Shown piece by piece: positions 5,102-64,000 of a DNA stretch of 64,000 nt. The notes below the pieces were generated by a model. That model was given only the letters and a program-made list of their open reading frames with translations, was not told where the DNA came from and did no database searches. Every line of letters starts with the position of its first letter. Positions within the stretch are counted from its first letter, which is position 1. Source of the DNA: Pyxidicoccus parkwaysis (GTDB lineage Bacteria > Myxococcota > Myxococcia > Myxococcales > Myxococcaceae); NCBI RefSeq assembly GCF_017301735.1, contig NZ_CP071090.1:6004001-6068000 (forward strand), in the 5' to 3' direction. The position numbers and the translations under genes were made by a program.

Positions 5102-6922
5102 TCAGCGCAGCGTGGGCGTCGTCCCGGGGCCCGCCAGCACGGGCTCCTCCGGGAGCGGGCGCTTGAGGATGACGAGCGCCAGGGTGGTCGCCAGCGTGCC
5201 TGCGAGGATGGACACGAGGTAGGGCCCCACCGGCTGCACCGCGTTGGGGATGGCGAGCACGAACACGCCACCGTGCGGCGCGCGCAGCCCACACCCGAAC
5301 CACATGGACAGCGCGCCTGTTATCGCCGAGCCGAACACGATGGAGGGAATGACGCGCAGCGGGTCCTTGGCGGCGAAGGGAATGGCGCCCTCGGAGATGA
5401 ACGCGAGGCCCAGCACGGCGGCGGCCTTGCCGGCCTCGCGCTCCTGGAGCGTGAAGCGGTTGCGCGCCACCACCGTCGCCAGCGCGAGCCCGAGCGGCGG
5501 CGTCATGCCCGCGGCCATCACCGCTGCCATCGGCGTGAAGGTGTTGGAGCCGAGCAGTCCCACCGCGAAGGCATAAGCCGCCTTGTTGACGGGCCCGCCC
5601 GTGTCCACCGCCATCATCGCCCCGAGCAGCAGTCCGAGCAGGATGGCGTTGGTGCCGCTCAGCCCCGAGAGGAAGTCCGTCAGCCCGTGCATGATGGCGG
5701 CCACCGGCGTGCCGATGACGTAGACCATGAGCAGGCCGACGACGAGGGAGGACAGCAGCGGGAGGATGAGGACGGGCTTCAGCCCTTCGAGGTTCGCGGG
5801 CAGGCGGATGTGGTCTCGGAACCAGCGCGCCACGTAGCCGGAGAGGAAGCCCGCGGCGATGCCTCCGAGGAAGCCGGCCTCGATGCGGCTCGCGAGCATG
5901 CCGCCAATGAAGCCCGGTGCGAGCCCCGGCCGGTCCGCGATGGAATAGGCGATGTAGCCCGCCAGCGCCGGCACCATCAGCGCGAAGGCGGCCTGGCCAA
6001 TCCCCATCAGCGCGGCGGGGAGCGAGCCCTCCTGCTTGAAGGCGTCGATGCCGAAGACGAACGACAGCGCCATGGCGAGCCCGCCCGCCACGACGAACGG
6101 GAGCATGAACGACACGCCCGTGAGGAGGTGCTTGTACGGGCCCGCCGGCTCCGTCTTCGCGGGCGCCACGGCCTGCGCGGGCGCTTCGGCGGCGGGCGTG
6201 CCGGCAGGGGTCACGGGCAGCGTGAGTGCGCGCTCAATCACGGAGTCGGCCTGCTTCAGCGCCTCGCCCACCGAGGTCTTCAACAGTCGCTTGCCCGCGA
6301 AGCGCTCGGTGGAGACGTGCGTATCCGCGCCGATGATGACCGCGTCCGCGGAGGCGATTTCCTCCGGCGTCAGCAGGTTCTTCGTGCCCACCGAGCCCTG
6401 CGTCTCGACCTTGATGGTGTAGCCCCGCGCCTTCGCGGCGCGCGTCAGCGCCTCGGCCGCCATGAAGGTGTGAGCGATGCCCGTGGGACACGCGGTGATG
6501 GCCACGAGGCGACCCGTGGACGGGCCGACCAGCGCCGCCGACGGAGCCGCACCCGCCCCACCCGCCACCTGCCGCGGTGGTGTCACGGGCAGCGGCTGGC
6601 CGGCGCCCATCCCCTCACGCGAACGCGCCACCGCCTCGTCGATGATGTGTTCCGTCTCTCGGATGGCCAGTGCCGTCGAGGTGCGGATGATGGGCTTGCC
6701 CTGAAAGCGCGACTCATCGACGGTGATGTCCGCCGCGACGATGACCGCGTCCGCCTCCGCGATGGCCGCCGCGTCGAGCGGCGAACGGACACCCTCGGAG
6801 CCGCACGTCTCGACGGCGATGGAGTGCCCCTTGAGCGCCGCCACCCGGCGCAGCGCCTCGGCCGCCATGACCGTGTGGGCGATGCCCGTCGGGCAGGCGG
6901 TGACGGCTACCAGTTTCGCCAT
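5102..6922 (-). CDS. fruA: Fructose PTS permease EIIB'-EIIB-EIIC
   Basis: A 606-residue fructose permease that takes up fructose and phosphorylates it at position 1. Two tandem IIB domains each carry an intact phosphocysteine motif CPTGIAHT, at C10 and C145. An Ala/Pro linker and a polytopic IIC domain from about residue 250 follow, with FruA-type segments such as GVSFMLPFVVAGG, GYIAYSIADRPGL, MAVDTGGPVNKAAYAF and FISEGAIPFAAKDP. In E. coli FruA, as recalled, the first B' domain has lost this motif, so two intact ones are noteworthy. The start ATG has GAGGAG 9 nt upstream. It is the last gene of the fruB-fruK-fruA run, 27 nt after fruK. Confidence 0.95.
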   Translation of the reverse strand: MAKLVAVTACPTGIAHTVMAAEALRRVAALKGHSIAVETCGSEGVRSPLDAAAIAEADAVIVAADITVDESRFQGKPIIRTSTALAIRETEHIIDEAVARSREGMGAGQPLPVTPPRQVAGGAGAAPSAALVGPSTGRLVAITACPTGIAHTFMAAEALTRAAKARGYTIKVETQGSVGTKNLLTPEEIASADAVIIGADTHVSTERFAGKRLLKTSVGEALKQADSVIERALTLPVTPAGTPAAEAPAQAVAPAKTEPAGPYKHLLTGVSFMLPFVVAGGLAMALSFVFGIDAFKQEGSLPAALMGIGQAAFALMVPALAGYIAYSIADRPGLAPGFIGGMLASRIEAGFLGGIAAGFLSGYVARWFRDHIRLPANLEGLKPVLILPLLSSLVVGLLMVYVIGTPVAAIMHGLTDFLSGLSGTNAILLGLLLGAMMAVDTGGPVNKAAYAFAVGLLGSNTFTPMAAVMAAGMTPPLGLALATVVARNRFTLQEREAGKAAAVLGLAFISEGAIPFAAKDPLRVIPSIVFGSAITGALSMWFGCGLRAPHGGVFVLAIPNAVQPVGPYLVSILAGTLATTLALVILKRPLPEEPVLAGPGTTPTLR

Positions 6923-6949
6923 GTTCGTGCGCTCCTCGTCTCTCGCTGC

Positions 6950-7906
6950 TCAGGCATCACTCAGGGAGTGGATGGACACGGAGCGCATCAGTGACTGAAC
7001 GCGCTCCTGCGACGGCGGCACCGGCCCCACCCGCACCAGCTTGCCGGCGGCGAACGCGGTGCCATACCGCGCACACTCCTCCAGCGAGCGCCCCGCCAGC
7101 CGCGCGGACAGCACGCCCGCCACCATCGAGTCCCCCGCCCCCACCGTGCTGGCCACCTCCACCCGGGGAGGCACCGCCAGCAGCGCGCCTTCGCCGTCCA
7201 CGAAGATGGCGCCCTCCGCGCCCAGTGACACCACCACCAGCTCGATGCCCGTCGCATGGAGCTGCCGCGCCGCGCGCACCACCTCCGTCCGGTCCGACAG
7301 CGCACGGCCGAGCAGCTCGGACAGCTCGTGCACATTCGGCTTCACGAAGTCGGGCTTCGCCGCCACCGCGTGCTTCAGCGGCGCGCCGCTGGTGTCCACC
7401 ACCACGATGGCCCCCCGGGACCGCAGCCGCGCTGTCAGCGTGGCGTACGCGTCCTCCTGCATTCCGGCCGGCAGGCTGCCCGAGAGCACGAAGCAACTGT
7501 TGTCCCTTGCGAGCGCGTCCAGCGTCTCCGTCAGCTTCTGCAGCGCACCGTCCGGCACCTGCAAGCCCGGCAGGTTGAGGTCCGTGACGGTGCCGCCCAT
7601 CCGGTCCACCACCTTGATGTTGACGCGACTGGAGCCGGGCAATCGCAGGCAGCGGTCCAGGATGCCGCGCTCCTGGAACAGCGCCTCGAAGACCTGCGTG
7701 TTGTCCGCACCCAGGAAACCCGTGGCGGTGATGGGCAGGTCACCCCCCGCGAGGAACGCGGCGACGTTGATGGCCTTCCCACCCGCCGTGCGCGTCTCGG
7801 ACGTCACGCGGTTGACGGCGCCCGCCGTGAAGCCGGGGCACTCCAGTGTCTGGTCGATGGCCGAGTTGAGGCTCACCGTGACGATGCCAGGCTTCGTCGG
7901 CGTCAT
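6950..7906 (-). CDS. fruK: 1-phosphofructokinase
   Basis: A 318-residue PfkB/ribokinase-family kinase that converts fructose 1-phosphate and ATP to fructose 1,6-bisphosphate. The N-terminal substrate region has SLNSAIDQTL and the glycine-rich TAGGKAINVA. The C-terminal signature STVGAGDSMVAG contains the catalytic Asp and the anion hole. Length is normal for FruK. Its ATG overlaps the fruB stop by 4 nt and fruA follows 27 nt downstream, the standard order of fructose operons, which separates it from tagatose-6-phosphate kinase paralogues. No frameshift or unusual composition was seen. Confidence 0.95.
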   Translation of the reverse strand: MTPTKPGIVTVSLNSAIDQTLECPGFTAGAVNRVTSETRTAGGKAINVAAFLAGGDLPITATGFLGADNTQVFEALFQERGILDRCLRLPGSSRVNIKVVDRMGGTVTDLNLPGLQVPDGALQKLTETLDALARDNSCFVLSGSLPAGMQEDAYATLTARLRSRGAIVVVDTSGAPLKHAVAAKPDFVKPNVHELSELLGRALSDRTEVVRAARQLHATGIELVVVSLGAEGAIFVDGEGALLAVPPRVEVASTVGAGDSMVAGVLSARLAGRSLEECARYGTAFAAGKLVRVGPVPPSQERVQSLMRSVSIHSLSDA

Positions 7907-10413
7907 GCGCCCTCCCCCGTCCGGGCCAGCAGGCCCTGCACCAGCGTCCGCACATCCGACGCGTTCTCACAGGCGAGCGCACGGCGTGCGAGCCCCTCCA
8001 GGTCCGCCATGGACACGCTCCTCAGCAGCGCCTTGATGGCCGGAATGGTGGGAATGGCCACGCTCAGCTCGGTGACGCCGAGCCCCGCGAGCGTCATCGC
8101 TCCCGCCGGGTCTCCCGCCACGCCGCCGCACGCGCCCACCCAGATGCCGGCCGCGCGCGCCGCCTTCACGGTGAGGTCCACCATGCGAAGCACGGCCGGA
8201 TGCACGCCGTCCGCCTGCGGGGCGAGAACCGGATGCTCGCGGTCCATCGCCAGCACGTACTGCGTGAGGTCATTGGTGCCGATGGAGAAGAAGGACACCT
8301 CCTTCGCCAACTGGTCCGCGAGCAGCACCGCGGAGGGGACTTCAATCATGATGCCCGTCTCCACCGGCGGCGCGCCCACCTCGCGGCGCACCTCCTCGGT
8401 GATGGCCTTCGCGCGGCGCAACTCCGCGAGCGTGGCCACCATGGGGAACATGATGCGCACCGGCCCTTCCAGGGACGCGCGGAGGATGGCGCGCAATTGC
8501 GTGCGGAACAAATCCTCCCGCTCGAAGCACAGGCGGATGCCGCGCACGCCGAGGAACGGGTTGGCCTCCGCGGGGAGCGACAGGTAGGGCACCTGCTTGT
8601 CGCCGCCGATGTCCAGCGTGCGGAGGATGATGGGCAGCCCGTTCAGCGCCCGCACCATGGTGCGGTAGGCCTCGTACTGCTCGTCCTCGCCGGGTGGGTC
8701 GTCGCGCTGGAGGAAGAGGAACTCCGTGCGCATCAGCCCCACGCCCTCGCCGCCGGCATCCACGGCCATCTGCGCGTCCTTCGCGGAGCCGATGTTCGCG
8801 GCCACCTCCACGCGGCGCCCGTCGCGGGTGATGGCGGGCTTGTAGCGGTCCAGCTTCTCGGCCTCGCGCTGCTCGCGCACCCTCTCGCGCTGCGTGGCCG
8901 CGCGCTCGAGGTCCTTCGCGGACGGGTTGACGACGAGCACCCCCGCATTGCCGTCGAGGATGCACTCCTGCCCGTTCTGCAAATCGAGCACGGACGGCCC
9001 GGCCGCCACCACCGCGGGAATGTCCAGCGAGCGGGCGATGATGGCCGTGTGCGACGTGGCCCCGCCGCCGACGGTGCACAGCCCCAGCACCATCGCCGGG
9101 TCCAGCTTCGCGGTGTCGGACGGAGCCAGGTCCTCGGCCAGCAGCACCACGGGATGGTCCGGCAGCGAGGCCACGCCCTCCACCACATCCGCCAGCAGGC
9201 GCAGCACGCGGCGGCCCACGTCGCGCAAATCACCGGCGCGCGCGGCGAGCAGCGGGTCCGCGAGGCGCGCGAGCACATCCGCTCGTGCCTCGTAGACGGT
9301 GCGCCACGCCCAGCCGGCGCTCGCCCCCGCGTCGATGTGCTGGTGCGCCTCCGTCACCATGTCCGGGTCGTCCAGCAGCTCCTGGTGCGCCTTGAAGATG
9401 GCGGCGCGCGCGGCACCGGCCTTCTTGAAGAACTCCTTGTACAGGTTGTGGAGGTCCGCCGTGGCGCTGGCCAGGGCCCTGTCCAGGCGCTCCCGCTCGC
9501 GGACCGCGTCCGGTGCCCGCTCCTCCACCTCCAGGCGCTCATGCTGGAAGGCCCACAGCGGCCCCGCGGCGATGCCCGGCGACGCGGAGATACCGGCCAC
9601 CAGCGTCCCCTCGTAGTCGAGCCGCACCGCCGGCACCGCGACGGGCTCTGGGGCACCACCGGGCCGGGACGGCGCCGCTCCTCCTTCACCCAGCCCCTCT
9701 TCGAAGGCCTCACGAATGGCGGCAATCGCTGTCGGCGCATCGTCGCCCACGGCGCCGACAATCAGCGTGGCACCGCCCCGGGCCCCGAGCGACAGCAACG
9801 TCACCATGCTCTTCGCATTGGCCGTCCTGCCGTCGTACTTGACGAAGATTTCGCTGCGGAAGCGCTTGGCCACCTCCACGAGCACGGTGGACGGACGCGC
9901 GTGCAGGCCGTGCGGCACGGGCGACGTCACCTCGATGCTGCAGCCGCCACCGGACAGGGGCGCCGGTGCGTGCTCGGCCCTCGCGGGAGCCCCGTTCAGC
10001 GTGGCGACGACGAGGTCCTCATCCGTCGTGCGGGCCAGCTCCTCCGACTTCGCCGCGTCGCCGAGCACGCCGGTGAGGTTGGCCAGCACCTGGAGGTGCT
10101 CATCCGAGCGCGCGGCGATGCCGACGACGAGGCGCGCGTGCCCTTCCCCACCCCAGTCCACGCCCCGGGGGAACTGCACGACGACGACGCCGGTCTGCTT
10201 CACCATCTCCCGCGCATCGGGCGTGCCGTGAGGAATGGCGATGCCGTGCCCCAGGTACGTCGCGGAGACCTTCTCGCGCCGGAGCATGCTGTCGATGTAG
10301 CCGGGCTCGACGAAGCCCACGTCCACCAGCGTCTGCCCGACGAGGCGGATGGCCTCCGTCTGGCTCGTGGCGGCCTGTCCCAGGCGAACGTGCGTCCTGC
10401 GCAGTCTCAGCAT
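7903..10413 (-). CDS. fruB: Fructose PTS multiphosphoryl transfer protein, EIIA-HPr-EI fusion
   Basis: An 836-residue fusion carrying phosphate from PEP to FruA in one soluble chain. EIIA(Fru) is residues 1-145 with active His near 62 (GIAIPHGTPD). HPr is about 157-245 with His near 171 (HGLHARPSTV). Enzyme I is about 270-836 with phospho-His near 455 (GGATSHTAIIARS), the PEP-site arginine segment LMRTEFLFL, and the C-terminal GACGGVAGDP with the catalytic Cys. Domain order matches the FruB/MTP proteins of Pseudomonas and Xanthomonas. Its own EI and HPr mean it does not need separate ptsHI genes, and none are present here. GGAG sits 6 nt before the ATG; the gene starts 9 nt after the helicase stop. 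Confidence 0.93.
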   Translation of the reverse strand: MLRLRRTHVRLGQAATSQTEAIRLVGQTLVDVGFVEPGYIDSMLRREKVSATYLGHGIAIPHGTPDAREMVKQTGVVVVQFPRGVDWGGEGHARLVVGIAARSDEHLQVLANLTGVLGDAAKSEELARTTDEDLVVATLNGAPARAEHAPAPLSGGGCSIEVTSPVPHGLHARPSTVLVEVAKRFRSEIFVKYDGRTANAKSMVTLLSLGARGGATLIVGAVGDDAPTAIAAIREAFEEGLGEGGAAPSRPGGAPEPVAVPAVRLDYEGTLVAGISASPGIAAGPLWAFQHERLEVEERAPDAVRERERLDRALASATADLHNLYKEFFKKAGAARAAIFKAHQELLDDPDMVTEAHQHIDAGASAGWAWRTVYEARADVLARLADPLLAARAGDLRDVGRRVLRLLADVVEGVASLPDHPVVLLAEDLAPSDTAKLDPAMVLGLCTVGGGATSHTAIIARSLDIPAVVAAGPSVLDLQNGQECILDGNAGVLVVNPSAKDLERAATQRERVREQREAEKLDRYKPAITRDGRRVEVAANIGSAKDAQMAVDAGGEGVGLMRTEFLFLQRDDPPGEDEQYEAYRTMVRALNGLPIILRTLDIGGDKQVPYLSLPAEANPFLGVRGIRLCFEREDLFRTQLRAILRASLEGPVRIMFPMVATLAELRRAKAITEEVRREVGAPPVETGIMIEVPSAVLLADQLAKEVSFFSIGTNDLTQYVLAMDREHPVLAPQADGVHPAVLRMVDLTVKAARAAGIWVGACGGVAGDPAGAMTLAGLGVTELSVAIPTIPAIKALLRSVSMADLEGLARRALACENASDVRTLVQGLLARTGEGA

Positions 10414-56494: not shown

Positions 56495-57379
56495 ATGGAG
56501 CTCCGGCACCTTCGCTACTTCTCAGCGGTCGCGGACACGCTGCACTTCGGGCGCGCGGCTCGGCGGGTGCACGTCTCTCAGCCCACGCTGTCGCAGCAGA
56601 TCCGACAGTTGGAGGAGGAATTGGGGACGCCGCTGTTCGAGCGAGCTCGCGCCGGAGTGCGGCTGACGCAGGCGGGGGAGATGTTCCGCACGTATGCGTC
56701 TCGTGCGCTGGAGGACGTGAATGCCGGAGTGTCCGCGGTGGGAGCGCTGCGCGGGCTCACCACGGGGGCGCTGCGCGTGGGGTATCCGCCGAGCATGCGT
56801 GGCATCGTGGTGCCGGCGCTGGCGGCGGTGTTGCGGAAGCACCGTGGCCTGGCGCTGAGCGCGGAGGAGGTGGTGGTGCGGCGGCTGGAGCGGCGGCTCG
56901 CGGACGGCAAGCTGGACGTGGGGCTGGGCTATGCGCCGGCTCGGCTGGCGGACCTGGATGCGGAGCCGGTGTTCGACAGCCGGCTGACGCTCGTCGTGGC
57001 GCGGGGACATGCGCTGGCGGGGGCGGAGTCGGTGGGGGTGAAGCAGTTGGTGGAGGAGCCGTTCGCCCTGTTGTCACGCGGGCTGCGGGTGCGAGCGCGA
57101 GTGGATGCGTACTTCGCGGCGATGCGGCTCGCGCCACGGGTGGCGCTGGAGTCGAACGCGGTGGGGACGGTGCTCGCCATCGTCCGGGCGGGGCTGGCGG
57201 TGACGGTGCTTCCGGAGCCACGGCTCGGGGATGCGGAGCGGTTGGTGGTGAAGCGGTTGTCTCCGGCTCCGCGCTCGGAGCTCGCGGCGCTCCTGTGGCG
57301 CAAGGGGGCGGTCCGAACGCCGGCGGCGGAGTTGTTCGCGGCGGAGGTGCGGGCTCGGGCGAAGGAGGACGCGGGTTGA
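56495..57379 (+). CDS. LysR-family transcriptional regulator
   Basis: About 294 residues. N-terminal winged helix MELRHLRYFSAVADTLHFGR / RRVHVSQPTLSQQIRQLEEE, then a periplasmic-binding-like effector domain (ALRVGYPPSMRGIVVPALAA). The start at 56495 is chosen because family members begin MELRHLRYF and because the earlier ATGs (56483, 56486) overlap the operator-like repeat. The divergent position and the T-N11-A box indicate control of the TPP-enzyme/aldehyde-dehydrogenase operon. Confidence 0.92.
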   Translation: MELRHLRYFSAVADTLHFGRAARRVHVSQPTLSQQIRQLEEELGTPLFERARAGVRLTQAGEMFRTYASRALEDVNAGVSAVGALRGLTTGALRVGYPPSMRGIVVPALAAVLRKHRGLALSAEEVVVRRLERRLADGKLDVGLGYAPARLADLDAEPVFDSRLTLVVARGHALAGAESVGVKQLVEEPFALLSRGLRVRARVDAYFAAMRLAPRVALESNAVGTVLAIVRAGLAVTVLPEPRLGDAERLVVKRLSPAPRSELAALLWRKGAVRTPAAELFAAEVRARAKEDAG

Positions 57380-57467
57380 GGTCTTTCGGGACGGAGTTCC
57401 GCTGAGAGAAAGCAACTCACGGGCGGGACGTGCCGTTACCCGACGTCACGGAGACGGCCGCTGCGGG

Positions 57468-57695
57468 TCAGGCTTCCTCCTCGGGCAGGAGCGTACGCAA
57501 CAACTCGTCGTCCGGGCCGAGCGGGCGCCAGCCGGGCGGCGGCGGGTTGGCACGGAGTGCTGCCCTGGCCTGCCTCACGCGTTCCTCATGCGTTTCTGGT
57601 GTGTAGCTACTCCATCGAGCAAGTGCCTGCGCAATATCGAATCGAGTTGCGTCATCCAGTACGGCGGGCCACCCATTCGGAAGATGCTGGGCTAG
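57468..57695 (-). pseudogene. Third putative immunity gene, 3' part (cut by IS21)
   Basis: The last 76 codons of a third copy of the 156-residue immunity family, from LAQHLPNGWPAVLDDATRFD to LLRTLLPEEEA and its TGA. Its 5' part is at 60045-60287. Joining the two with one copy of the CTCGC target duplication gives VRGQFVRELAQHLPNGWP in one frame, matching VRGQFVRELCTHFPEGWP in copy two, and a total of 156 codons plus stop, the same as copies one and two. Confidence 0.9.
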
Positions 57696-57700
57696 CTCGC

Positions 57701-57755
57701 TGTAGAGCGACAGCAATATTGACCCCCTCGCGACACTAAAACTGACCCCCTCTCC
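57701..57755 (+). repeat. IS21 left terminal inverted repeat
   Basis: TGTAGAGCGACAGCAATATT, then GACCCCCTCGCGACACTAAA, then ACTGACCCCCTCTCC. It matches the right end in about 45 of 55 positions with one single-base gap. TGACCCCC occurs at 57720 and again at 57743. Confidence 0.9.
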
Positions 57756-57780
57756 GGGCCCGAAACCAGGGAGGTAGGCA

Positions 57781-59076
57781 GTGATGGAAGAGACGGCAGT
57801 AGTAGCCCTCCGCTCGACAGCGGAGGAGTCGATGGTCGAGCAGGAAGTCGTGCGGCGGATGCGTGCGCTGGCGGAGGCGGGCTGGGGCCACAAGCGCATC
57901 GCGCGCGAGGTGGGCGTGGCGCGGAACACGGTGAGGCGCTACCTGCGAGCGGGCCGTGCGGCCGACAAGCAGGTGCGCCCGAAGGCGCGACGGCTCACCG
58001 AGGCCGAGCAGCAGCGCGCGGCGGAACTCTGGGACTCGACCGCTGAGGGCAACGCCGTCGTCGTGCAGGCGCTGCTGGCCCAGGAGGGCATCGAGGCCAG
58101 TGTCCGCACCGTGCAGCGCGCGGTGGAGACGAGGCGGCGCCAGGTGCACGCGGCCCAGGTGGCCACGGTGCGCTTCGAGACAAAGCCGGGGCAGCAGATG
58201 CAGGTGGACTTCGGCGAGAAGAAAGTGCGCGTGGGCGGGCAGGTGGTGAAGGTCTTCCTGCTGGTGGCGGTGCTCTCGTTCTCGCGGCGGCTCTTCGTAC
58301 GAGCCTTCCTCAATCAGCGCGGAGACGACTGGCGCGAGGGTGTGGCCGCGGCCTTCATGCACTTCGGAGGCGTGCCGCTGGAGGTGCTCTCGGACAACGC
58401 CCGGCCGCTCGTCGTGGAGCACCACCGGCCGGCGGGCACCGTGCGCTTCCACCCGGCCTGGGTGGAGTTCTGCCGGGACTGGGACGTGACGCCCAAGGCG
58501 TGCGGGCCGTACCGAGCGCGCACCAAGGGCAAGACGGAGTCGGGCGTCAAGTACGTCAAGCGCAACGCCCTGGCGGGCCGGGACTTCGAGTCCTTCGACG
58601 CGCTGGAGGCCCACCTGGCGCAGTGGATGCGCGAGGCGGATGAGCGCGTGCATGGCACCACGCACGAGCGTCCCCTCGACAGGTTCGAGCGCGAGGAGAA
58701 GGCCGCCCTGCGGGCGCTGCCCACGCGAGTGCTGCCGCGTCGCCACCAGCGGCTGGTGCGCAAGGTGGCCCACGACGCGCTCGTGGACGTGGACACGGTG
58801 CGCTACAGCGTGCCGCACCGGCTGGTGCGCGAGCGCGTCGAGGTGCAGGTGGGCGACTCTCAGGTGCGCATCTTCCACGCAGGCCAGCTGGTGGCCACGC
58901 ATGCGCGCAGTCGGGAGCCGCACGGGCGCGTCATCGACCCGGCCCACTGGGAGGGGCTCTGGAGACTGCGCCCCGTGGAAACCACCGGGGCCACCTCCGC
59001 CCTGGCGGAACTGGGCCGCACGCTGGGCGCCTACGCCCAGGTGGTGGAGCAGGCCGCGAAGCGGGGTGCGGCATGA
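57781..59076 (+). CDS. istA: IS21 transposase IstA
   Basis: A 431-residue DDE transposase. An N-terminal helix-turn-helix (GHKRIAREVGVARNTVRRYL) binds the ends. The catalytic core is QMQVDFGEKK (first Asp), LSDNARPL (second Asp) and KGKTESGVKYVKRN (Glu), followed by the IS21 C-terminal region. GTG 57781 has GGAGG 6 nt upstream; the next codon is ATG. It overlaps istB by 4 nt. Confidence 0.95.
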   Translation: MMEETAVVALRSTAEESMVEQEVVRRMRALAEAGWGHKRIAREVGVARNTVRRYLRAGRAADKQVRPKARRLTEAEQQRAAELWDSTAEGNAVVVQALLAQEGIEASVRTVQRAVETRRRQVHAAQVATVRFETKPGQQMQVDFGEKKVRVGGQVVKVFLLVAVLSFSRRLFVRAFLNQRGDDWREGVAAAFMHFGGVPLEVLSDNARPLVVEHHRPAGTVRFHPAWVEFCRDWDVTPKACGPYRARTKGKTESGVKYVKRNALAGRDFESFDALEAHLAQWMREADERVHGTTHERPLDRFEREEKAALRALPTRVLPRRHQRLVRKVAHDALVDVDTVRYSVPHRLVRERVEVQVGDSQVRIFHAGQLVATHARSREPHGRVIDPAHWEGLWRLRPVETTGATSALAELGRTLGAYAQVVEQAAKRGAA

Positions 59077-59861
59077 GTCACGAACTGGTACACGCGCGTG
59101 TGCTGGAGCACCTGGGGAGGCTGCGGCTGGGCCACCTGGCCGAGCGGCTGGACGCGCTGCTCTCGGAGGCGGCTCGCAGCGAGCCGACCTACCTGGACTT
59201 CCTGGACGCGCTGCTGCGCGAGGAGGTGGGGGCCAAGCAGAAGAAGCGCATCAGCATGGGCATCATGATTGCCCACTTCTCGGCGGTGAAGACGCTGGAG
59301 GACTTCGACTTCAAGGCGCAGCCGTCGGTGGACGCGAAGCTGGTGCGGGAGCTGGCCACCGGGCGCTTCATCACGCAGGCCGAGAACGTGTTGCTGTTCG
59401 GGCCGCCGGGCGTGGGCAAGACGCACCTGGCGATTGGGCTGGGGCGGGCGGCAGTGGAGGCCGGGCACTCGGTGCTCTTCACCAGCGCGATCGCGCTGCT
59501 GGCGGCGCTGGCCAAGGCCGAGAGCGAAGGAGGGCTCAAGGACAAGCTCAACTACTTCGCCAAGCCGAAGCTGCTCGTTATTGATGAGCTGGGCTACCTG
59601 CCCTTCGAGAAGAGGAGTGCGCACCTCTTCTTCCAGCTGGTGGCGCGGCGCTACGAGAAGGGCAGCCTTCTCATCACCACCAATCAACTGGTGAGCCAGT
59701 GGGGTGGTGTCTTCGGGGATGACGTCCTGGCCACCGCCATCCTCGACCGACTGCTGCACCACAGCCACACGCTGCTCATCCAGGGCGACAGCTACCGGCT
59801 GCGCCAGAAGCGCAAGGCGGGGCTGCTGGGTCGAAGCGTCCCGCAGCCCCACGAGGGCTGA
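59073..59861 (+). CDS. istB: IS21 helper ATPase IstB
   Basis: A 262-residue AAA+ ATPase needed with IstA for target choice and integration. It has the helical N-terminus, Walker A FGPPGVGKTHLAIGL and Walker B LLVIDELGYLPF, with sensor-type segment LLITTNQLVSQW. It is full length and uninterrupted. Confidence 0.95.
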   Translation: MSHELVHARVLEHLGRLRLGHLAERLDALLSEAARSEPTYLDFLDALLREEVGAKQKKRISMGIMIAHFSAVKTLEDFDFKAQPSVDAKLVRELATGRFITQAENVLLFGPPGVGKTHLAIGLGRAAVEAGHSVLFTSAIALLAALAKAESEGGLKDKLNYFAKPKLLVIDELGYLPFEKRSAHLFFQLVARRYEKGSLLITTNQLVSQWGGVFGDDVLATAILDRLLHHSHTLLIQGDSYRLRQKRKAGLLGRSVPQPHEG

Positions 59862-59897
59862 GCAGGACACGAGCGCAGTGCCTCGGACGTCGCCTCC

Positions 59898-59931
59898 GCG
59901 CGCCCTCGCCAAAGAAGCCGCGAGGGCGCGC
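59898..59931 (+). terminator. Hairpin after istB
   Basis: GCGCGCCCTCGC - 10-nt loop - GCGAGGGCGCGC, a perfect 12-bp stem 36 nt past the istB stop and inside the element, likely ends the transposase transcript. Confidence 0.55.
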
Positions 59932-59988
59932 TCCGGCCGGACGCACGCAGGAAAACGACGTAGCCTTACGGAGCAGTCCAACGGCTCT

Positions 59989-60044
59989 GGGGAGGGGGTC
60001 AGTTTTAGTGACGTAAGGGGGTCAAGAATTCCTGTCGCCTGACA
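59989..60044 (-). repeat. IS21 right terminal inverted repeat
   Basis: Read inward on the minus strand: TGTCAGGCGACAGGAATTCT, TGACCCCCTTACGTCACTAA, AACTGACCCCCTCCCC, the partner of the left end. Confidence 0.9.
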
Positions 60045-60287
60045 CTCGCGCACGAACTGTCCGCGAACCAGTCGTGTGACCCGCTTGTGCTGCTCCGCCT
60101 CGGCTACCATGCCGCTGAATACCTGGACCGCGTTGATGTCGTCCGCTCCCAGCTCCTCGGCCAGCGCCACGACCGATGCGATAGGTCGGGCCTCGGCAAA
60201 GGCCGTAAGCGAGTCATAACCACGCTCGCGGACGCGCTCATACAGGCGGGACTTCCAGTTGCCCTGCCAGGATCGTCCGTCGGTCAT
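60045..60287 (-). pseudogene. Third putative immunity gene, 5' part (cut by IS21)
   Basis: The first 81 codons of the third copy, from MTDGRSWQGNWKSRLYERVR to VTRLVRGQFVRE, 9 nt after copy two. The GCGAG (CTCGC) target duplication falls in the codons for R-E. The remaining sequence is at 57468-57695. A longer minus frame that reads on into the element is an artefact. Confidence 0.9.
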
Positions 60288-60296
60288 TGACGTCTC

Positions 60297-60767
60297 TCAG
60301 GCATCCTTGTCAGGAAGAAGCATGCGCAACAATTCATCCTTAGGGCCCAGTGGGCGCCATCCGGGCGGAGGTGGATTCGCAAGGAGAGCCGTCCTGACCT
60401 GCTTGGCACGTTCCTTATGGGTTTCTGGCGTGAAGGCAATCCATGAACCAAGGGCATGGGCGACCTCGAAACGGTTTGCGTCGTCCAGCTCGGCCGGCCA
60501 GCCCTCAGGGAAATGCGTGCACAGTTCCCGCACGAACTGTCCGCGCACAAGGCGCGTGACCTGATTGTTCCGCTCCGCCTCGGCCACCAGTCCGCTGAAC
60601 ACCTGCACTCCGGCGATGTCGTCCGGACCAAGTTCCTCGGCCAGCGCTACCAGTGAGGCAGTAGGGCGCGCATCGGCAAAGGCCGTGAGGGACTCGTACC
60701 CGCGCTCGCGGACCCGCTCGTACAGGCGGGCCTTCCAGTTGCCCTGCCATGCAAGCCCGTCTGTCAT
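60297..60767 (-). CDS. Putative immunity protein, tandem copy two
   Basis: 156 residues, no signal peptide, no recognised fold. The family plan is a basic N-terminus (MTDGLAWQGNWKARLYERVR), ERGYESLTAFADARPTASLV, ALAEELGPDDI, then LVRGQFVREL, and a highly conserved end ANPPPPGWRPLGPKDELLRM. It follows copy one after 6 nt and precedes copy three by 9 nt. An immunity role is inferred from the tandem, toxin-linked position; in Sit loci such as sitBAI the gene after the toxin is the immunity gene. Confidence 0.75.
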   Translation of the reverse strand: MTDGLAWQGNWKARLYERVRERGYESLTAFADARPTASLVALAEELGPDDIAGVQVFSGLVAEAERNNQVTRLVRGQFVRELCTHFPEGWPAELDDANRFEVAHALGSWIAFTPETHKERAKQVRTALLANPPPPGWRPLGPKDELLRMLLPDKDA

Positions 60768-60773
60768 CGCGCC

Positions 60774-61244
60774 TCAGGTTTCCTCGTCGGGAAGAAGCAT
60801 GCGCAGTAAATCGTCGTCAGGACCGAGCGGGCGCCAACCGGGTGGCGGAGGATTGGCCCGAAGTGCTGCCCTGGCCCTAGCGGAGCGCTCCCCATATGCA
60901 TCCGGGATGTATGCCGACCACGTGCCAAGTGCCTTCGCCACCAGGAAGCGGTTGCCGTCATCCATCACGGCCGGCCAGCCATTCGGGAGGCTCTGGGACA
61001 ACAGCCGTACGAGAACATCGCGGACGAATCGCGTGACCTGCCTACGCTGTTCCGCCTCGGCAAGTAGCCCGCTCAATACCTGCACACCGGCGACGTCATC
61101 CTCGCCAAGCTCTTCAGCCAGTTCCACCAACGGGACGGCAGGACGTGCTTCAGCAAAGGCCGTGAGCGAACTGTAGCCCCGCTCGCGGACGCGCTCGTAC
61201 AGGCGGGCCTTCCAGTTGCCCTGCCATGAACGTCCGTCGGTCAT
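60774..61244 (-). CDS. Putative immunity protein, tandem copy one (toxin-adjacent)
   Basis: 156 residues of the same family: MTDGRSWQGNWKARLYERVR, LSGLLAEAEQRRQVTRFVRD, RANPPPPGWRPLGPDDDLL. Its ATG overlaps the TGA of the toxin-like gene (4 nt), the tightest coupling in the locus and the position expected for the cognate immunity gene. Copy two differs most in the middle (about residues 70-120), which may be the specificity region. Confidence 0.75.
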   Translation of the reverse strand: MTDGRSWQGNWKARLYERVRERGYSSLTAFAEARPAVPLVELAEELGEDDVAGVQVLSGLLAEAEQRRQVTRFVRDVLVRLLSQSLPNGWPAVMDDGNRFLVAKALGTWSAYIPDAYGERSARARAALRANPPPPGWRPLGPDDDLLRMLLPDEET

Positions 61245-62779
61245 CGCCGTCCACCGGTAACGAAGCGCATCGGGATGTCGTAGAACCTCATATTCTCCGC
61301 GACGATGTTCAGGATCTCGTTGCGGGTCAACATGCGCCCCGCATCGTTCTCCGCATTGCCCAATACTCGCATGATCATTCGGTTCCATTCGCCGGGCCAC
61401 ATGCGACCCAAGCGCCAGTTGCCACCGCCGTGAATGGCCTCGTGGTGTGCCTGCTCCAACCGGACGCAGAACCTGTCGATGTCCATTTCGCCCGTGAATC
61501 CGCGCCCCTCGAACCATGTGCGGCGCTCTTGCGGCATGACGTGGTGCAGAGGGTTCTCAGACATGCCCGCTCCGGCTCGTCCCGTCACACGCATACCGCG
61601 CACTTCGGGGCTGTCACCCAGCGCCTCGCGCACTCCTTCCGGCAGGTCGTCGTTCGACTGCGCCATCATCACCTGTCCGCCATGAATGCGGACAGCCGCG
61701 CTGACGGCGGGAAGGGAGAGGACGCCCGCCTTCACGAGCCTCCGAATCATCTCCACCCACTCGGCGGAGACGACAAGCTGAGAGCCGGCCATCACTCCAC
61801 CCGGCCCCATCACGAGGCCCACCCCCAAAGTGGCCGGAACGGCGGGCGGTTGCCGGGGCAGTGACATCTTCATCGTGGAGATCAGGGTGAGCATCTCCAC
61901 CCACTGGACCACCGCCAGTGTCCTCCCCGCCTTCTCCATGGACGTGCGCGCTCCATCGCGGATGGAGCCGAACTCACGGGTGAGCTCCCCCATCAACTCG
62001 GGCATCGACGTGGCGGCGCCCTCCACCTGCTCGGCATCGCCAGATTCCAGCGCGGTCAGGACAGGCGCCATCCGCTGCTGCACCCGGTGCATGTCCATGA
62101 ACAACGCCTCGACGCTATAGGCGGGGCATTCACGGAGCACGACGTCCGCGAGCTGGAGGAAGTCGATCCATGCCGCCAACAGCATGGAGCCGAACATGGC
62201 GGACTGAAGGCGTGGACCCGCCAACCGGAGGATTCCGAACTCCATGTCCGCGTCGCCGACTTCACCGGCAGCAGCAACGAGCGTCGTGGTGCTACCGAGC
62301 GCGCTGCGCAACCAGGGCAGTTGGTTGGAGCCAAAATCCAGGTAGCGGGTGAAGACACCGTTGACCCCGCTCAATCCCCGATTGCTCAGGCTCGAAGGTG
62401 GCCGGCGAGCCATCCCGGACAGCGCACTCGCGGCGCTGTTGGTGGAGTCCTTCACCTCATCCACGGCTTCGAGCACCGCTTCACGCACCCGTGCGGCACT
62501 CGGCTGAACAGCGCCGGCCTCGCCGCCAGCGGCCACCCGCGTCGTGTCGTCCCGTGGTCCCACGCGACGCACCATGCGCTCACGTGCCGCTGTTCCCGCG
62601 ATGGAAGGTGGAGAAGCCATCCACGTTTCCTGGCGCTCCTCACGCGATGGCTGTGCCAGGCCGGGCTGCGGGGCGCGTGCCATGTCGGCCAGGGTTCCAC
62701 CACGGCTTGTCGCTCGCGGCAGCGACGCGCAACCGGTGGTGAGCAGACTCATGCAGAGCAACAAGGCCTCAGCGCGCAT
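61241..62779 (-). CDS. SitA-like lipoprotein toxin candidate
   Basis: A 512-residue lipoprotein with signal MRAEALLLCMSLLTTGC and Ala-Ser after the Cys. Residues about 20-400 are variable, with helical stretches (FTRYLDFGSNQLPWL; AGRTLAVVQWVEMLTL). The C-terminal 105 residues hold ENPLHHVMPQ (H412, H413), WFEGRGF, AHHEAIHGGGNW (H445, H446, H450) and PGEWN, a His-rich nuclease-like core matching that of the DUF2380 lipoprotein at 19465. Myxobacterial SitA toxins are lipoproteins passed between cells by TraA/TraB outer-membrane exchange; placement here is inferred from architecture and from tandem immunity-like genes. The start overlaps the upstream gene by 11 nt. Confidence 0.75.
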   Translation of the reverse strand: MRAEALLLCMSLLTTGCASLPRATSRGGTLADMARAPQPGLAQPSREERQETWMASPPSIAGTAARERMVRRVGPRDDTTRVAAGGEAGAVQPSAARVREAVLEAVDEVKDSTNSAASALSGMARRPPSSLSNRGLSGVNGVFTRYLDFGSNQLPWLRSALGSTTTLVAAAGEVGDADMEFGILRLAGPRLQSAMFGSMLLAAWIDFLQLADVVLRECPAYSVEALFMDMHRVQQRMAPVLTALESGDAEQVEGAATSMPELMGELTREFGSIRDGARTSMEKAGRTLAVVQWVEMLTLISTMKMSLPRQPPAVPATLGVGLVMGPGGVMAGSQLVVSAEWVEMIRRLVKAGVLSLPAVSAAVRIHGGQVMMAQSNDDLPEGVREALGDSPEVRGMRVTGRAGAGMSENPLHHVMPQERRTWFEGRGFTGEMDIDRFCVRLEQAHHEAIHGGGNWRLGRMWPGEWNRMIMRVLGNAENDAGRMLTRNEILNIVAENMRFYDIPMRFVTGGRR

Positions 62780-64000
62780 CGTCCACCCCCAGGCCCATCG
62801 AGGCGAAGGCCGCTGGACGCAACACTCCAGCCGCTTCGGGAAAGAGCAGCGTGCCGCCCGTGCCCATGACGTAGAGCCTCCCGCCGAGAAAGCGCCAGCG
62901 AACCTCCGCCGCGCCCAGGTAGCGCGCTCCAGGTTGGCCCATTCCCGTGCCCAGTCCCTTCACGGCCAGCTCGACACTTCGTTGGAAGAGCTGCACCGCG
63001 ACTCGGCCGTCCACGTCGAAGCGGCCCCAGGTGAAGGCCTCCGCGCTCAGCGACAGCTTCAGGTGCTTCTGGAGCCCGCCGTAGCTCACGGCATCCCAGC
63101 CCACCTCCGCCTCGGCGTAGAGCGAATGTCCGTCCGGAAAAGACGCGTCCGCCAGCGGAACGCCGTCTGCCCCCGTCGCATTGAAGCGCGCCAGCTCATA
63201 GTCGGGGCCGAAGAACCCTTGCCGGAAGCCGCCGTGCTGCCGTCTCGCCTCCAATCGCAGCTTCAGGTCCAGCGTGGAAGTCATCACATCGAGTCCCGCG
63301 CCCATCACCGCGCCCCACGCGCCTTCTCCGGGCCTGCCACCCCAACCGGCAAGCACGTGCGCCTCGTACGTCGGACGCACCAACACCACGGCGGTCGCGT
63401 CCACGTGTGCCAGCGTCAGTGAAGGTGTACGCCCTCCGGCCCTGCCCCAGTCGTGCACGGCGGACAGCGCCAACGTGTAGCAGCCCTTGTCGCGCGGCTT
63501 GCCGAAGAGGACGTGCTCCATGTCCAGCGAGAGCTCGGCACCCATGAGGCGCGCGCCCAGCACGTCCGAGGCGAAGGCGTGCGTGTAGAGCGGCCCCAAT
63601 GTGCCGGTGAGGAAGGCGCCCGCCGGGTGGTAGTCGGGATTCGTCCGGTTGGAGTAGCGCCGCACGAGGTGGCCAGACAGGAGGCTGTAGTTCTCCAGGG
63701 CGCCGAACCACACGCCCACGGGCGAGTCGTCCGAGCCCAGCTTCAGCGCTCGGAGGAGCTGCCCCCAGTCGGAGAGGGAGTCCCAATCCTCGCGCCGTAC
63801 CAGACCTTCGCCACCTCCCCATAGCCTCAGCCGCACGGGGGCGCCCACGTTGACGCCGAACTCCGGGCCTCCGTCGATGATGAGCGTGGGCTCCACCTGC
63901 ACGAAGCCCTCCTCGCGGCCTCCTCCCGAGCGTCGCAGTAGCGCCCACGTCGCCGCTTCCAGTCGCGTCAAGGAATGCCACCCGCGCCCCATGCGCGCGG
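62769..64000 (-). CDS. Outer-membrane beta-barrel-like protein, probably partial
   Basis: At least 407 residues, with no stop before the right edge, so the true N-terminus and any signal peptide may lie outside. The sequence alternates hydrophobic and polar residues with many aromatic and Gly turns (LTLAHVDATAVVLVRPTYEA; KLSLSAEAFTWGRFDVDGRV; KGLGTGMGQPGARYLGAAEV), typical of an outer-membrane barrel. It lacks a terminal Phe. It overlaps the toxin-like gene by 11 nt, so it is translated from the same message, a place that in some sit loci is taken by the helper SitB. Whether it plays that part is unknown. Confidence 0.65.
   Translation of the reverse strand, partial: ARMGRGWHSLTRLEAATWALLRRSGGGREEGFVQVEPTLIIDGGPEFGVNVGAPVRLRLWGGGEGLVRREDWDSLSDWGQLLRALKLGSDDSPVGVWFGALENYSLLSGHLVRRYSNRTNPDYHPAGAFLTGTLGPLYTHAFASDVLGARLMGAELSLDMEHVLFGKPRDKGCYTLALSAVHDWGRAGGRTPSLTLAHVDATAVVLVRPTYEAHVLAGWGGRPGEGAWGAVMGAGLDVMTSTLDLKLRLEARRQHGGFRQGFFGPDYELARFNATGADGVPLADASFPDGHSLYAEAEVGWDAVSYGGLQKHLKLSLSAEAFTWGRFDVDGRVAVQLFQRSVELAVKGLGTGMGQPGARYLGAAEVRWRFLGGRLYVMGTGGTLLFPEAAGVLRPAAFASMGLGVDDAR

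Follow-up and report, generated by a model that had tools for sequence, protein, structure and literature searches.

The sitBAI cassettes of outer-membrane exchange carry overlapping genes in the order sitB-sitA-sitI and encode a lipoprotein toxin (Vassallo et al., 2017, PMC5562445); an 11-bp sitB/sitA overlap is reported for three such cassettes of M. xanthus (PMC5562445). Strings of immunity genes at the 3´ side of polymorphic toxins have been explained by a displacement model (Zhang et al., 2012, PMC3482391), and sequential effector displacement has been inferred for the T6SS of Vibrio cholerae (Kirchberger et al., 2017, PMC5361080). In M. xanthus, strains with a transposon inserted in an immunity gene are viable and show altered colony compatibility, and cross-immunity between homologous pairs depends on their similarity (PMC12077131). 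The locus described here resembles the displacement arrays in that a new tip would enter with its antidote at the proximal end while older antidotes, similar to antidotes linked to effectors in other strains, persist downstream. It differs from the V. cholerae T6SS and polymorphic-toxin arrays in being a SitA-like lipoprotein cassette in which an insertion sequence disrupts the distal-most gene.

The window, that is, the whole analysed stretch of 64,000 nucleotides, comes from a genome of the Myxococcus group assembled as one contig of 13.2 Mb. The features of the locus are as follows.

57380–64000: cassette region missing at the syntenic site of the nearest species compared; the conserved flank stops at 57379 and restarts ~294 bp past the window
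57468–57700, minus strand: 3´ part of imm3, codons ~80 to 156 and stop
57696–57700, no strand: left CTCGC, copy of the 5-bp target duplication
57701–60044, plus strand: IS21-family insertion sequence of 2,344 bp, terminal inverted repeats of ~55 bp, TGT...ACA
57781–59076, plus strand: istA transposase, 431 aa
59073–59861, plus strand: istB helper ATPase, 262 aa
60045–60049, no strand: right CTCGC, copy of the 5-bp target duplication
60050–60287, minus strand: 5´ part of imm3, start codon at 60285–60287, codons 1 to ~80
60297–60767, minus strand: imm2, intact tandem immunity homologue, 156 aa
60774–61244, minus strand: imm1, intact first-position immunity gene, 156 aa, overlapping the toxin gene by 4 bp
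61241–62779, minus strand: resident SitA-like lipoprotein toxin, 512 aa, lipobox LTTGC, DUF2380-like C-terminal tip
62769–64000 within the window, minus strand: SitB-like gene, 11-bp overlap with the toxin gene, signal peptide

The cassette shares with sitBAI the gene order, the lipoprotein toxin, the overlaps of 11 bp (equal to the reported sitB/sitA overlap) and 4 bp, and a SitB-like protein with a signal peptide. The SitB-like gene starts ~155–160 bp outside the window (gene to ~64160), and its homologue at L026, elsewhere in this genome, is 80% identical. In the L026 cassette (5886–10334), the toxin matches that of the window over the first 120 residues only, and the immunity homologue follows a 241-aa gene; L026 is thus a cassette with another tip and an antidote of the family behind it. 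The resident toxin, whose tip bears the motifs HHV...AHHEAIHGGG, scores 29.5 bits against PF09533 (DUF2380), above the gathering threshold of 26.3, and 19.6 bits against TIGR02269 (SitA6), below the cut-off of 85.75; related toxins reach 18.5–24.7 bits against the latter model. Assignment to SitA6 by this model was therefore rejected, and because only the DUF2380 threshold is reached, we call the cassette SitA-like and not a proven SitA6. It further differs from sitBAI in its extra immunity genes downstream and in an immunity protein (60297–61244 and homologues) that matches no Pfam or NCBIfam family. A fold search of the confident all-helical immunity model against the PDB returned no significant match, and profile matches of this protein to RecA chains were discarded as spurious, since they rest on a 28-residue stretch. 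The toxin tip is modeled with low confidence (pLDDT 64), and its PDB profile search gave weak ribosomal-protein matches only. Expression, TraA-dependent transfer and toxicity of the SitA-like toxin are putative. In the nearest species compared (flank identity 91%; one genome per species), the syntenic site lacks the whole cassette.

The inserted element is a typical IS21-family member. IstA (NF033546 transpos_IS21, 249.8 bits against a cut-off of 160) and IstB (NF038214, 284.7 bits against a cut-off of 200; PF01695) are encoded in tandem by genes that overlap by 4 bp. A gapped alignment of the two ends gives 48 matches in 57 columns with a local score of 63, compared with at most 30 for 1,992 pairs of segments picked at random in the window. 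The two overlapping genes, the TGT...ACA ends and the presence of a 5-bp duplication, as also at both sister copies described below, agree with the family, and the window element shows no essential difference from it. Its nearest full-length relatives within the order share 84–86% DNA identity; no full-length copy above 86% was found in the other genomes examined in the order.

Insertion has split imm3, the distal immunity gene of the sitBAI-type cassette. Removal of the element and one CTCGC restores an open frame of 156 codons (57468–60287, minus strand), while the frame is broken if both CTCGC copies are kept. The restored gene aligns without gaps to its two tandem neighbours, each of 156 codons, at 74% and 71% identity. 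An earlier note on this DNA, which described an IS21 element with ~55-bp TGT ends and a CTCGC duplication as cleanly splitting a 156-codon immunity gene, is thereby confirmed. The 5´ part of imm3 now reads into the element, joining 81 native residues to ~337 from the antisense strand of the element, and the first half of the 3´ open reading frame is likewise supplied by the element; neither half encodes the normal product. The insertion point at codons 80–81 falls within helix 70–85 of the imm2 model, which is all-helical (pLDDT 91). This places the break in a predicted core helix, and neither half is expected to function.

The genome contains two further copies of the element, both outside the cassette:

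G000:C1:2035436–2037779 (L030:3437–5780): second identical copy, duplication GCTCG
G000:C1:9217742–9220085 (L029): third identical copy, duplication AGGCG

All three copies are 100% identical over the 2,344 bases, and each has a target duplication of its own, which indicates that the insertion is recent, as the earlier note had proposed. With 5.5e-10 mutations per site in each generation, the rate for M. xanthus (PMC11069108), zero differences place an upper bound of ~8e5 generations (95%) on their common age, assuming a star tree, neutrality and no gene conversion. The note had relied on the undecayed state of the two halves. Neither contains a stop, but this is expected at so young an age and the 470-bp remnant adds little to the dating. 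By eye, the second copy interrupts the 3´ part of a TIR-domain-like gene (L030:5758–6264, minus strand), possibly a defence gene lost in the same burst of transposition.

The earlier note regarded imm3 as one of three immunity copies, and such a set could have arisen by local duplication, with all three genes directed against the resident toxin and the loss lowering dosage only. Their equal length, ~70% identity and position in one operon are compatible with that origin. The sequences themselves contradict it: the pairwise identities are 69–74% with a synonymous divergence of ~1, and each gene is nearer to homologues of other species than to the other two. In a tree of 121 homologues, imm1 falls in a supported clade with L132_p1 and L200_p1, imm2 groups with Archangium sequences at weak support, and imm3 groups with L126_p1, L178_p1, L175_p1 and L181_p1, also weakly and outside any strongly supported small clade. 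The nearest relatives of imm2 are first-position genes of Archangium and of a Myxococcaceae MAG. Local duplication is rejected by the tree and the divergence, and we consider a mere dosage effect very improbable; by sequence, each of the three tandem genes represents an allele lineage of its own. The note's count of two remaining copies holds for the intact tandem neighbours; it leaves out three more intact relatives that the genome carries at other places. The remaining tandem genes are not necessarily interchangeable. One immunity homologue of this genome (L028:9156–9623; G000:C1:11546664–11547116) is free-standing, with no toxin relative detected within 19.5 kb around it.

To which toxin does each gene respond? 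Across 77 loci, the identity of the first-position immunity gene correlates with that of the toxin tip (Mantel r 0.37; maximum r 0.21 in 2,000 permutations). Because the first-position gene tracks the tip in this way, imm1 fits the resident toxin. Its nearest relatives, L132_p1 and L200_p1, belong to loci whose tips rank second and third of 76 in similarity to the resident tip. The best homologues of imm3 in the genus and the wider family share 84–88% identity with it, and all are first-position genes with a 4-bp toxin overlap; the top match, at 88%, comes from another genus. The tips of these imm3-type loci are 79–95% alike among themselves and 67–73% identical to the resident tip. No toxin with an imm3-matching tip was found in the strain's own genome, where the other related toxin, at L027, is 64–65% identical to the tip group. 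This co-variation makes a foreign toxin group, not the resident toxin, the most likely target of imm3. Because imm3 matches the foreign tips, no self-poisoning is predicted, and because the genome has no toxin with a matching tip, loss of imm3 should be harmless to its own cell. At 67–73% tip identity, cross-immunity between the resident system and the target group is nevertheless possible. imm2 is 77–79% identical to L126_p1 and L178_p1, and it may cover the loss of imm3 by cross-protection.

Arrays of this kind are common in the genus. Among 84 loci drawn from 27 genomes, window included, 16 carry at least two members of the immunity family. Each of the 22 downstream immunity genes examined is nearer to a foreign first-position gene than to the first gene of its own locus (mean identity 84% and 69%, respectively), a foreign likeness that adds to the case against local duplication in the window. 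Four of the downstream genes (L194_p2, L063_p2, L072_p2 and L085_p2) have a toxin gene directly upstream; 18 of the 22 have none of their own. The toxins of the nearest first-position relatives of downstream genes resemble the resident toxin no more than background does (0.73 and 0.72, respectively), whereas the same comparison for first-position genes gives 0.82 (p = 1e-4, n = 17).

Sequential displacement predicts that surplus immunity genes match toxin-linked genes of other strains, as is seen in all 22 cases and for imm2 and imm3 of the window, and that syntenic loci differ by proximal addition of a tip and antidote, as is seen at L149/L176/L184 and at L137/L140. The first set occupies one chromosomal site in three genomes (G008, G016 and G019, respectively; flank identity 93–96%) with the arrays A-B, C-A´-D and B´-D´. 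These arrays fit a single order C-A-B-D with losses, and the three loci clearly illustrate, as a natural series, how tips are displaced one after another in SitA-like cassettes. Within the pairs L149/L176 and L137/L140, the toxins have near-identical bodies (~90%) and tips at 44% and 62%; the syntenic toxin pairs diverge in the last 50–60 residues, and older immunity genes lie downstream of the replaced tips.

In the cases seen, the broken members of multi-gene arrays lie at the distal end (the window, L126, L061, L062 and L219), although these cases are few and not all independent. The second immunity gene is frameshifted at L126 and split or truncated at L061 and L062. At L061 (1046–1691), the gene is interrupted after codon 46 by ~190 bp of additional sequence, which may be another small insertion. 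L219 (4661–6803, in G101) combines one toxin with four full immunity genes and a truncated fifth at the distal end.

Because distal genes are broken elsewhere as well, the loss of imm3 may be neutral turnover without social effect. Under that explanation, to which we give slightly less than an even chance, imm3 was already useless, either because its toxin is absent locally or because imm2 covers it, and the insertion is noise that leaves tolerance unchanged; it departs from our preferred explanation in the consequence only. That imm2 resembles the first-position genes found in the putative target group is in keeping with it, as is the position of two of the three element copies elsewhere in the genome. 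Against it, imm3 was full-length and constrained until the recent insertion (dN/dS ~0.15 in comparison with imm2), which argues that the gene was under selection or had not long been obsolete. The earlier note's suggestion of a changed tolerance of neighbours stands in part: we infer such a change from the matching of immunity genes and tips, and the broken gene may instead represent the decay of an obsolete one.

A stronger social interpretation would have the insertion spread by creating incompatibility with a neighbouring lineage, as a selected step in self/non-self divergence. Transposon insertions in M. xanthus immunity genes do create colony-merger incompatibility (PMC12077131), and the present event is alike in being a transposon insertion in an immunity gene. 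Those mutants, however, concern T6SS/PAAR-linked nuclease systems in which the cognate antidote is hit, whereas the antidote hit here is probably non-cognate. A cell that loses an orphan antidote gains nothing and pays a cost on encountering the toxin, and the cassette is absent from the sister species; we regard selection of this kind as very improbable indeed.

We therefore return to the loss of a foreign-facing antidote. A recent transposition placed an IS21-family element in imm3, which lies farthest from the toxin gene in the three-gene immunity array of a sitBAI-type polymorphic-toxin cassette. imm1 is probably the antidote to the resident toxin, and imm2 and imm3 are probably surplus (orphan) immunity genes, which either remained when new tips took the place of earlier ones at the toxin-proximal end or were acquired in another way. 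By abolishing imm3, the insertion would leave its own cell unharmed, with protection lost against neighbours that carry the tip group of L126, L178, L175, L181 and L214–L217, unless imm2 cross-protects. As judged from these comparisons, it is likely that the element removed an orphan immunity gene, harmlessly to self, and with it the protection against one foreign toxin group; the strain may now be sensitive to neighbours with the foreign toxin variant, not to its own toxin.

More tentatively, and with somewhat less confidence than we grant to neutral turnover, the array could be read as a chronological ledger of the toxin tips used or met at the locus, from which the element has just erased the oldest entry. 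If so, the locus would provide a recent natural loss of immunity, through a single gene, to one identifiable foreign toxin group, and it would allow a direct test of whether selection maintains displaced antidotes or whether they decay, beginning at the distal end.

The event is an ordinary insertion into an orphan immunity gene, and what makes it interesting is that it predicts, specifically and testably, which neighbours the strain would no longer withstand. The locus joins IS activity, orphan immunity arrays and social compatibility in myxobacteria, each of which is already known. Kin recognition in bacteria depends on the antidotes that a cell carries. From this locus, the surplus antidotes of a SitA-like cassette appear to be separate specificities that face foreign toxins, and imm3 offers a datable natural knockout with named candidate attackers.
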